A program made the translations under genes and the position numbers. The notes beneath the pieces were generated by a model that was given only the letters and a program-made list of their open reading frames with translations, was not told where the DNA came from and searched no databases. From Terriglobus sp. TAA 43 (GTDB lineage: Bacteria; Acidobacteriota; Terriglobia; Terriglobales; Acidobacteriaceae), in the NCBI RefSeq assembly GCF_000800015.1, contig NZ_JUGR01000002.1, positions 434,001 to 498,000 of the forward strand: a stretch of DNA of 64,000 nt. Direction: 5' to 3'. Of the stretch, positions 29,009-31,843 are shown piece after piece. Every line of letters starts with the position of its first letter. The first letter of the stretch is position 1.

Positions 29009-30016
29009 TCACCTCGGTGAAGTCATGGGCTCGTTGATGGGCGCTGGCTTGCCGAAGTTCGGCGTGCCGTCTGCACTCCACGTAAAGGGCTGAATGCGAG
29101 GCGAACGATGATTACCGCAGCCTTGTCCCGGTTCTGGATTGGCGTGATAAACAATCCAATTCTGACCGTTAGGCGCATTGAAGAATCCGTTGTGGCCTGG
29201 GCTGTACGCATGTGCCGATGCGTCTGTTGTGAAGAAAGGATGATCGATCTTCGTCCAGCTCTTTGCGTCCAGCAGATTTGCGTTCGTCTTTGCTTCCAAC
29301 TCGCCGAGCGAATAGAAGTCCGTCCAGCACCCATTGGCTGAGAATGTGACGAAGACCTTATCGCCATGCGGCAGAAACTCCGGACCTTCATTGACACTAA
29401 CGTGACGCCCCGGCAGATCTCCGTGCAATTCCCATTCGTATGTGGGTTTACCGATGAGCGTACGTGGACTGTCGATAGTCCAAGGGCTACTCATGTGAGC
29501 GATGAAGATATCCTGCTCGCCGTCGTGATCACCCTGCCAACCTGACCAGATGATGTAATGCTGACCGTGATGCTCGAAGACAGATGCATCAATGGCCCAC
29601 TTGTCTGTGCTGTCAGCAACCTTCCCCTTCAGCGTCCATGTACCCTGCGTGGGATCGTCTGATGGATTTTCGACAACGTAAATGCGATGTCCTTCATTCT
29701 TCCCCGCGTCCGCGGCAAAGTAGATGTACCACTTGTTTCCCCAACGATGCAGCTCCGGTGCCCACAGTTCCTTCGACCACTCGTGGCCGGGCTCGGGTGT
29801 CCACACGACGACAGGCGCAGCCTTGTCCAAAGCAGCCGTATCCGCAGTCTTGCGAATCTGCAGATCCTTGCCCGTGGTGTTCATGTAGAAATACGAACCC
29901 TTGTAACGAATCACCCACGGATCGGGGCCATGATCGAGCACGGGATTCGTGAAAGTGGACTGCGCCAAGGAGATGGCCGCGAAAAGAAGCGTGGCAAGAA
30001 GGGATCGAATACGCAT
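29009..30016 (-). CDS. Secreted GH43 glycoside hydrolase (arabinanase/arabinofuranosidase-like)
   Basis: 335 residues from the ATG at 30016, which begins a good signal peptide (end SLAQS). The frame is open upstream but the extra 24 residues look non-native. The five-bladed propeller triad is visible: D32 in HGPDPWVIR (base), D143 in WAIDASVFE (pKa modulator) and E210 in VNEGPEFL (acid). The N-terminal TNPVLDHGPDP is typical of GH43. The likely activity is on arabinan or xylan side chains. The long WELHGDLPGRHVSVNE loop precedes the acid residue. The C-terminal RSPRIQPFTWSADGTP fits the family. Confidence 0.9.
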   Translation of the reverse strand: MRIRSLLATLLFAAISLAQSTFTNPVLDHGPDPWVIRYKGSYFYMNTTGKDLQIRKTADTAALDKAAPVVVWTPEPGHEWSKELWAPELHRWGNKWYIYFAADAGKNEGHRIYVVENPSDDPTQGTWTLKGKVADSTDKWAIDASVFEHHGQHYIIWSGWQGDHDGEQDIFIAHMSSPWTIDSPRTLIGKPTYEWELHGDLPGRHVSVNEGPEFLPHGDKVFVTFSANGCWTDFYSLGELEAKTNANLLDAKSWTKIDHPFFTTDASAHAYSPGHNGFFNAPNGQNWIVYHANPEPGQGCGNHRSPRIQPFTWSADGTPNFGKPAPINEPMTSPR

Positions 30017-30136
30017 CGGGGTTGATTGTAGACCGGCAACGAGCATCGCCCACACAAACAAGCGCAAAAGCAGAGAACAGGACCGCACCCGTGCGGCGAT
30101 CCAGCCCTATCGGAAGAAACGCAGGAGACGGCGTCC

Positions 30137-30460
30137 TTAGTGCGATGTGTACTTCAGGCCGAGGATGGAACCGATCAGCATCGTCAGAAAGAGCAGACGC
30201 GGCGCTGTTGCCGGTTCATCAAAGAGTGCGATACCCAGAATGGCTGCACCCACAGCACCAATGCCCACCCACACTGCGTAAGCAGTCCCGATGGGAAGCG
30301 TCTGCGCGGCGCGTGCCAACAGATACATGCTGCCCGCGAGAGCGATGAGGGTAAAGATGCTAGGAAACAAGCGGGTGAAACCGTGTGTGTATTTCAAGCC
30401 AACGGCCCACGTGGTTTCAAGAAGACCCGCGACAAAGATAAGAACCCAGGGGTTCGACAT
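30137..30460 (-). CDS. gdx: SMR family guanidinium exporter (Gdx/SugE)
   Basis: 107 residues with four membrane helices. The key Glu15 lies in the first helix (AGLLETTWAVGLKYTHGF), with the SugE/Gdx-type WAVGLKYT motif and not the EmrE pattern. GTAYAVWVGIGAVGAAILGI is the signature in helix 3. Proteins of this kind export guanidinium with protons as dual-topology dimers. A guanidine-III aptamer ends 16 bases before the ATG and strongly supports guanidinium as the substrate. The start is preceded by GGAG at 30471-30474 on the complement. Older annotation as a quaternary ammonium pump is less likely. Confidence 0.94.
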   Translation of the reverse strand: MSNPWVLIFVAGLLETTWAVGLKYTHGFTRLFPSIFTLIALAGSMYLLARAAQTLPIGTAYAVWVGIGAVGAAILGIALFDEPATAPRLLFLTMLIGSILGLKYTSH

Positions 30461-30476
30461 AAAGAGACGCTCCGCT

Positions 30477-30517
30477 GCGTCGTCTTGTCCTTACCGGGTA
30501 CGGCGCGTCTCGTCCGG
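30477..30517 (-). promoter_or_regulatory. Guanidine-III (ykkC-III) riboswitch aptamer
   Basis: On the complement the sequence reads CCGGACGAGACGCGCC then GTACCCGGTAAGGACAAG and ACGACGC. From memory it differs from the crystallised Thermobifida fusca guanidine-III aptamer at only about four of 41 positions and keeps the CCGGACGAG, GTACCCGG and AGGACAAGACG blocks that form the pseudoknot. It ends 16 nt upstream of the gdx start and abuts its Shine-Dalgarno. In this class ligand binding usually exposes or frees the ribosome-binding site, so gdx translation should rise with guanidinium. Confidence 0.92.
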
Positions 30518-30586
30518 ATCGAAAATCGATAGGTTAGATTTTGCGTTTCCTTTATAAGGGTACCATTCTGCGGCTCCCTCTAAACC

Positions 30587-30619
30587 ACGAAAAGGCCCGC
30601 GATTTGCGGGCCTTTTCGT
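30587..30619 (-). terminator. Terminator of the M48 protease gene
   Basis: A perfect 14-bp inverted repeat (arms 30587-30600 and 30606-30619, loop GATTT) with A- and T-runs in the arms. It lies just after the M48 stop and upstream of the gdx leader, so it isolates gdx from the transcript above. Confidence 0.9.
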
Positions 30620-30634
30620 TTGATTGAAGATGTT

Positions 30635-31843
30635 TTAATCACGGCGATTGAGCACCGGACGGTTGTCATTACTGTTGCCGCTGTCCTGCGTGCTGGCTGG
30701 GTCGGTGTTACTGGCGGAGGTACGGCGAAGCGTGGGCTTGTTGCCGTCCTTGCCACCGTCGACCTTGCGCTTGTTCTGGAGGCGCGCCAGGCGTGCCTTG
30801 ATGTCGTCAAACTCCGACGATGTGACCAGATAATCAGGACGCGCGGGGAGAATTGTTGCGATCTCCTGCTCGGAACGGTCGATACGATCCGGCGTCTGCG
30901 GATGATCAGAGAATGCCCGCGCCAAAACGCCCGGCTTGCGCTTCTCTAACGCGTCCAGCTTTTCAAACATGGTAATGAGACCCTGCGGATCGTAGCCGGA
31001 ACGATAGGCATACTGAATACCGAGATAGTCAGCTTCCGCCTCGAAGTTACGCGAGAACTTCAGAAAGCCAAGCGGAATGGCAAGCTGCGATGCTTCGTAG
31101 ATGCCGTACGCCGTATAACCACCCATGAAGATCAGCGGCACCGTGGAAAGCTGCATGTACTCCAGACGCGTCATCTGGCGGGCGGCATGGTGGGCGCAGA
31201 CATGCGCAATCTCATGCGCCATCACACCAGCAAGTTCGCTCTCATTGTCAGCGGCGAGGATGAGGCCACTGTTCACGTAGAAAAAGCCACCAGGCAAAGC
31301 CATGGCGTTAATCTCGTCGGAGTCGATGACCTTGATGGTGAACGGCACCTTCGCATCGGAGTTCTTCACGATGTTCTGGCCAACGCGGTTCACATACTCA
31401 ACGATGACGGGGTCTGTGATGAGGTGCGAGGAACGCTCAATCTCAACGGCGTAAGACTTGCCATTGCGAACTTCCCAGTCGGTCGAAAACCAGTTACCCA
31501 GTCCGCGGCCGCCGATGTCGCGCGTACCTGTGGCACTGACATCTTCTTCCGAACCCTTCTTGATGTCTTTCTTCAGTTCGTCGCCCGGCTCCGGAATGGG
31601 CTGATTATTATTCTTCGCGGCTTCCGCACGCGCCTTGTCCATATCGTCTTTGGTTGCCGTCACTGGGCCGTCGCCGGTGGGGCCGCCGTTCGTGGGCGCC
31701 TTCGATTGCGGCGTATTGCTAGGGTTAGAAGACGTAGGTGTCTGCGTGGAAGTGGGCGTTTGCTGACCGGAGGTTTGCGCAACCACGGGCACGACCGGAA
31801 CGGCGGCAAGAGTGGTAAGGAGAACCAGATTCTTCAGTTTCAT
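30635..31843 (-). CDS. Secreted M48 family metalloprotease
   Basis: 402 residues from the ATG at 31843 (GGAG eight bases upstream). A signal peptide ends near VVAQTS. A low-complexity Thr/Pro/Ser linker spans about 25-65. The M48 domain has INAMALPGGFFYVNSGLI, the zinc motif HEIAH at 210-214 and the third ligand in RNFEAEADYLG (Glu about 268). The C-terminal tail is polar and disordered. It is BepA/YfgC-like in layout, but I see no TPR domain. Such enzymes usually work on periplasmic or outer-membrane protein quality control. It is divergent from the DinB gene. Confidence 0.92.
   Translation of the reverse strand: MKLKNLVLLTTLAAVPVVPVVAQTSGQQTPTSTQTPTSSNPSNTPQSKAPTNGGPTGDGPVTATKDDMDKARAEAAKNNNQPIPEPGDELKKDIKKGSEEDVSATGTRDIGGRGLGNWFSTDWEVRNGKSYAVEIERSSHLITDPVIVEYVNRVGQNIVKNSDAKVPFTIKVIDSDEINAMALPGGFFYVNSGLILAADNESELAGVMAHEIAHVCAHHAARQMTRLEYMQLSTVPLIFMGGYTAYGIYEASQLAIPLGFLKFSRNFEAEADYLGIQYAYRSGYDPQGLITMFEKLDALEKRKPGVLARAFSDHPQTPDRIDRSEQEIATILPARPDYLVTSSEFDDIKARLARLQNKRKVDGGKDGNKPTLRRTSASNTDPASTQDSGNSNDNRPVLNRRD

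Follow-up and report, generated by a model that had tools for sequence, protein, structure and literature searches.

The guanidine-III riboswitch class was assigned to Actinobacteria and delta-Proteobacteria by Weinberg et al. in 2010 (Table 1 of PMC2864571), and a 2025 review that counts 237 representatives describes it, in the text available, as "mainly found in Actinobacteria" (PMC12186494). Two comammox genomes with guanidine-III have also been reported (PMC11410670). No report of the class in Acidobacteria was found in the papers searched. The term Acidobacteri is absent from the available text of PMC12186494, PMC7736828, PMC7266159, and PMC11410670, while in the portions available PMC8492726 names Acidobacteria solely as carriers of arr and PMC2864571 mentions them only with other motifs.

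The window analyzed here is a 64-kb stretch (64,000 nucleotides) of the genome of Terriglobus sp. TAA 43, and all positions are numbered from its first base. When this stretch was searched with cmscan, the Guanidine-III model RF01763 matched positions 30535-30474 of the minus strand with 58.9 bits (gathering cut-off 36, E = 1.2e-9, model positions 1-67 of 67), and nothing else in the stretch passed a cut-off. With the scan relaxed to E ≤ 0.5, only two further matches appeared, both of them sub-threshold Thr_leader (E = 0.012 and 0.21). An earlier, sequence-only reading of this DNA had called a 41-base minus-strand segment a guanidine-III riboswitch and had proposed the covariance search as its check; the match lies at that place, with a score far above the cut-off. 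As judged from its sequence, the segment is a genuine and well-supported member of this known class, and it very probably would turn on the guanidine-export gene directly behind it. The features of the locus are listed in Table 1.

Table 1. Features of the guanidine-III/gdx locus, in window coordinates.
Feature	Position	Strand	Basis and remarks
GC-rich inverted repeat with A/T ends (aaaaggcccgcaaatcgcgggcctttt)	30590..30616	-	Sequence; a similar repeat occurs in two relatives
Upstream stem-loop AUCGA-UUU-UCGAU	30518..30530	-	Rfam alignment; corresponds to the variable stem that opens the Rfam model
Guanidine-III aptamer	30517-30477	-	41 bases; the Rfam model also takes in the upstream stem
Shine-Dalgarno site GGAG	30470..30473	-	Sequence and motif search; 9 bases before ATG, 3 bases after P2
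Proposed anti-aptamer GCGUCUC	30464..30470	-	Shares the final G of GGAG; putative function
gdx/sugE, predicted guanidinium exporter of the SMR family, 107 aa	30137..30460	-	NF008512

The product of the gene behind the aptamer scored 130.3 bits against NF008512 (cut-off 126). Its closest solved structures were the SMR chains 6wk5 (E = 1e-33), which we take to be Gdx-Clo, and 8vxu (E = 4e-33), with EmrE chains matching far lower (best E = 4.6e-14). The key residues of Gdx-Clo are E13, W16, S42, Y59, and W62, the tryptophan being Gly or Ala in the Qac type (PMC7695847, text available in part), and the window protein has the Gdx-subtype residues E15, W18, S44, Y61, and W64 at the corresponding places. 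The glutamate that the earlier reading had called diagnostic is E15, which aligns with E13 of Gdx-Clo, and the spacing that it had given also held, as the aptamer ends at 30477 and the first base of the ATG is at 30460, with 16 bases between. A Gdx/SugE gene at this distance downstream of the aptamer agrees with the export-gene context of the guanidine-III class.

On the other side of the aptamer, the inverted repeat is the probable terminator of an upstream M48 protease gene, and with a terminator in this position gdx would be its own transcription unit. The repeat was absent from the output of the terminator pattern scan, and no sigma-70 promoter-like site was found for gdx by pattern scan. 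The 17 M48 protease loci of the genus did not demonstrate an empty site: gdx adjoined the protease gene only in the three switch-bearing genomes. The gene behind gdx (30016-29009, minus strand) had a weak resemblance to arabinan endo-1,5-alpha-arabinosidase (E = 8.4e-5, 22.1 bits, cut-off 480), and its place beside gdx was kept in three genomes. A small hairpin, GAACCCCUGGGUUC, was also seen at 30455-30442 of the minus strand, near codons 2-7 of gdx.

The estimate of about four differences from the aptamer of Thermobifida fusca was a fair one: three are G10A, U11C, and G38A, and the fourth is presumably at position 26. Numbering follows the crystal structure paper of Huang et al. (PMC5696562), nt n corresponding to window position 30518-n. 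By sequence, the aptamer would form the H-type pseudoknot of P1 and P2 that the class requires. P1 joins nt 1-4 to nt 21-24 (CCGG/CCGG, 4 of 4 pairs), P2 joins nt 12-18 to nt 35-41 (GCGCCGU/ACGACGC, 6 of 7 Watson-Crick pairs, with C15.A38 mismatched), and nt 5-11 form the third strand. The ligand bases C6, G7, and G17 are all present. Among the nucleotides named in the available text of PMC5696562, the window keeps A5, C6, G7, A8, G9, C15, C16, G17, A19, C20, G24, U25, A27-G29, A30-A33, G34, G37, and C39, and differs only at positions 10, 11, and 38, which sit in regular triplets of the triple helix.

The C15.A38 mismatch was found in 40 of 47 related sequences, including the window, and an A.A mismatch in 3 more. 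Position 38 was A in 46 of the 47 (with C15 in 40, U15 in 3, and A15 in 3), a count that understates G38 in Actinobacteria because three actinobacterial copies with G38 were dropped for want of a recognized start. G38 also occurs in the copy on a Deinococcus plasmid (L121, 1973-2046), which has a third strand longer by two bases. By nearest-neighbor energies, P2 amounted to -5.3 kcal/mol in the C.A form and -12.5 kcal/mol in the C-G form. The mismatch may be a form of tuning, by which P2 would be firm only with the help of the ligand.

The riboswitch is likely to act as a translational ON switch for the guanidinium exporter, with the leader as the off-state partner of the aptamer. The sequence GCGUCUC, which is read as an anti-aptamer, is complementary over its full length to nt 7-13 (GAGACGC; 7 pairs, p = 0.003), and GCGUC, its opening five bases, could form 5 pairs with nt 37-41 of the P2 3' strand (p = 0.053), as assessed with 10,000 shuffles of the window leader in which the Shine-Dalgarno site was kept. 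The third strand and the P2 3' strand of the aptamer are near repeats of each other. In the proposed mechanism, GCGUCUC would pair without guanidine either with the third strand (G7 to C13) or with the P2 3' strand (G37 to C41), and this pairing would leave the aptamer open and GGAG buried. Guanidinium held between G7 and G17 would fix the third strand and the P2 3' strand in the P2 triple helix, which would free the leader and allow ribosomes to start on gdx. The C15.A38 mismatch of P2 would become an A-U pair in the P2-strand off helix, where A38 pairs with U30467, so that P2 of the window should need the ligand more than P2 of T. fusca does.

The free RNA from the aptamer to the ATG folded into the third-strand pairing (-19.3 kcal/mol). 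For longer stretches, with at least nine coding bases, the minimum was the P2-strand pairing, which also involves some bases of the start codon, and at nine coding bases the centroid still showed the third-strand pairing. Fold energies of the whole region were ordinary (z = -0.89, -1.09, and -0.40; -2.02 for the 33-base hairpin alone), and the test of predicted Shine-Dalgarno exposure on locking the aptamer gave a weak result for the window (p = 0.099). The off-state account is plausible and partly supported.

Leaders of related switches were compared in the same way. From 60 pattern matches, 9 were dropped for at least two substitutions (L008, L032, L033, L062, one of two at L159, L177, L131, L176, and L179; L131 and L176 are real aptamers that were lost to misalignment) and 4 for lack of a recognized start (L010, with A38, and L132, L133, and L178, with G38). 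The 47 that were kept were thinned to 23 leaders with at least 6 differences in the last 20 bases, the start and Shine-Dalgarno site of L157 being set by hand. The Myxococcota leaders represent the top scores, since the survey of that phylum gave 65 places and loci were kept for 30 of them.

Complementarity of the 23 leaders to nt 33-41, the P2 3' strand, exceeded that of leader shuffles (combined p = 2.4e-9; 9 of 23 below 0.05) and of shuffled segments (p = 1.9e-5; 8 of 23), and there was also complementarity to nt 5-13, the third strand (p = 3.2e-6; 5 of 23), though all combined p-values given here are optimistic because the leaders share descent. Other segments gave p = 0.007 (nt 2-10) and p = 7e-5 (nt 7-14), and no excess was seen for the control sets of reversed leaders (p = 0.82), complemented leaders (p = 1.0), or the P2 5' strand (p = 0.20). 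The predicted exposure of the Shine-Dalgarno site on aptamer locking was likewise greater than in shuffles (combined p = 8.4e-5, n = 23; 9 of 23 at p ≤ 0.05). In 8 of the 23 leaders, exposure was lost on locking or was no better than the shuffle mean, and these included L005, L072, L154, and L173 despite their strong complements. Among the four leader types of the host family, complementarity was found in that of the window only (p = 0.43 to 1.0 for L004, L006, L007, and L089); the distant acidobacterial copy L005 had leader complementarity with p = 0.001 and 0.029.

The third-strand pairings were built from different letters in different loci: GAGACGC/GCGUCUC in the window and L174, ACGAGGC/GCCUCGU in L005, GAGGCG/CGCCUC in L154, and ACGAGAC/GUCUCGU in L120. 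GUCUC occurred in 3 of the 11 leaders that follow an A10C11 aptamer (window, L174, and L120), and GCCUC in 2 of the 3 that follow G10C11 (L005 and L154) and in one that follows A10C11. Only these single cases suggest that third strand and leader have changed together; co-change is not established, because its direct test, a swap of third strands across the 23 leaders, lowered the fit only slightly (287 vs 273.6, p = 0.084). A more tentative idea, with the balance somewhat against it, is that many guanidine-III riboswitches outside the Actinobacteria share one platform, in which an element fused to the Shine-Dalgarno site complements both strands of the triple helix and the kept C15.A38 mismatch builds in dependence on the ligand. 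If so, ligand dependence would be built into a single aptamer position.

The main effect of the switch could instead be protection of the transcript, with the compact, guanidine-folded aptamer stopping RNase E and leader pairing being secondary. This is unlikely, though such a block is described for guanidine-III in the available text of the review PMC12186494, which cites Richards and Belasco 2021. The aptamer alone would suffice for it, which suits leaders that have no anti-aptamer, such as L004, L007, and L089, but the complementarity of leaders beyond that of shuffles is left unexplained. Much less probable still is transcription attenuation, in which the hairpin at 30481-30466 and its U-containing tail would be a terminator that the ligand-bound aptamer prevents from forming. 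GACGCAGCGGAGCGTC TCTTTATGTC is listed as terminator-like by the pattern scan, which found 4 such sites in 29950-30700 where 1.0 was expected; however, the hairpin has 5 pairs only and the U tract is interrupted, the Shine-Dalgarno site lies buried in the stem and the start codon is reached by the tail, and the pairing recurs in several other leaders that lack a U run. Translational control through the leader is the preferred reading of the locus.

Conservation within the genus was assessed in the three of 19 genomes that carry the switch. None of the 59 columns of the upstream stem and aptamer varied among them, compared with 1 of 16 positions in the leader and 41 of 155 in the stretch just upstream of the stem. 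In gdx there were 51 variable sites, 5 at first, 0 at second, and 46 at third codon positions. A chance or degenerate resemblance without function, for which no favorable point was found, can be set aside in view of the E-value to RF01763, the invariance of stem and aptamer beside a variable upstream stretch, and the presence of gdx next to every acidobacterial copy.

A survey of other Acidobacteriota, as the earlier reading had recommended, gave matches in 8 of 396 sampled genomes at E = 0.001 and in 7 of 396 over the RF01763 cut-off. The host family had it in 7 of 300 genomes, six of them the same genomes as in the phylum sample, and the order of genome G326 in 1 of 72. Eight distinct acidobacterial copies were over cut-off, and all eight stand before a Gdx gene. 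The extension of the class to Acidobacteriota is real but modest, and the switch is sporadic in the phylum. This would place guanidine sensing and export in acidobacteria; we know of no natural source of free guanidine for them.

The expectation that the class belongs mainly to Actinobacteria and Proteobacteria agreed in part with the published range, but copies over cut-off were also found in 61 of 195 Myxococcota genomes (named for the phylum of L018, Corallococcus) and in 8 of 294 Planctomycetota genomes (that of L034, Planctomyces sp.). Further copies before gdx were found in Legionella norrlandica and on the Deinococcus plasmid, both over cut-off, and in MAGs named Bdellovibrionaceae and Cyanobacteria, and actinobacterial plasmid records also contained guanidine-III (L120, L131, L132, L133, and L178). 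In L131 (1481-1543, 42.5 bits), a plasmid of Streptomyces sp. NBC_01001, the next annotated gene, about 80 bases on, encodes an Ohr-family peroxiredoxin rather than Gdx. In three Myxococcota genomes (G834, G845, and G846), two copies passed the cut-off, the second of them scoring about 47 bits. The copy in the Bdellovibrionaceae MAG UBA6776 (L010, 1440-1478) was weak (36.1 bits, model positions 25-64 only) and had a changed P1, with a downstream gdx 70% identical. L008 is doubtful as a guanidine-III copy, with 29.0 bits, below cut-off, and no over-cut-off match on scanning the locus; a pattern match on an archaeal Halorussus plasmid (L177) had no Rfam match and was taken as chance.

The best named relative of the window Gdx was that of Acidobacteriaceae bacterium ZG23-2 (CP085323.1, match at 199179). 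The same coordinate turned up in a genome of the host's own family (G494:C1:199179), which agrees with an acidobacterial host. Seven of the eight closest Gdx genes in the 300-genome family sample (at least 65% identity) had the switch, ZG23-2 being the one without it, and no guanidine switch was found at 14 more distant Gdx loci of the family that were scanned (L098-L111). A Gdx tree of 111 rows and 104 columns required at least 12 changes in switch presence. The acidobacterial switch-bearing Gdx proteins fell in a mixed group of 70 rows (support 93) that also contained Myxococcota, Planctomycetota, and others. Ten further SugE proteins of the family in the tree (L098-L107) lay apart from them, and the Gdx of G326 did not group with the switch-bearing Gdx of Acidobacteriaceae. 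The tree is weak evidence: it is built on a short alignment, it leaves 58 of 108 inner branches open, and long branches meet in it. The Gdx of a Holophagaceae MAG (L056, UBA8503) fell within the Myxococcus group, and contamination is possible; the bases just before its Gdx match read N, and no Rfam match was found in that locus. The earlier reading had offered extension of the class or transfer: Acidobacteriota are now one of several phyla reached, and movement of switch and gdx together between phyla is favored, though not proven, by the patchy distribution and the mixed, weakly resolved tree.

No other guanidine-I, -II, or -III switch was found in the 4.95-Mb host genome. A search for urea/guanidine carboxylase (TIGR02712) gave 7 partial matches, none over cut-off. 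The best of these (501 bits vs 1303.85, positions 1-447) lies beside a biotin-carrier match and looks like an ordinary biotin carboxylase. For the riboswitch itself, there was no blastn match in phage records and no exact-pattern match in viral contigs.

Among known systems, guanidine-II (mini-ykkC, RF01068) likewise precedes gdx, as it did at 7 of 42 gdx loci scanned, from 80 fetched (L024, L027, L028, L029, L031, L035, and L064). Its fold is unrelated to that of guanidine-III according to the available text of PMC5696562, and it is absent from the host genome. The guanidine-III copies before gdx in Myxococcota and Planctomycetota (L014, L018, L141, L174, and others) are closer: all kept copies have A38, many of their leaders have GUCGU or GCGUC beside the Shine-Dalgarno site, and their Gdx proteins are 48-69% identical to that of the window. 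Their leaders mostly differ from the window leader, and the class is common in Myxococcota but rare in Acidobacteriota. With the guanidine-III riboswitch of T. fusca (ykkC-III, RF01763, PDB 5NWQ), as described in the available text of PMC5696562, the window shares the pseudoknot of P1, P2, and third strand, the pocket bases, and a site before the ribosome binding site. It differs in having A10, C11, and the C15.A38 mismatch where T. fusca has the triple positions G10, U11, and C15-G38, and in the distance from the end of the aptamer to the ribosome binding site, which is 16 nt in T. fusca, whereas GGAG of the window starts 3 bases past P2.
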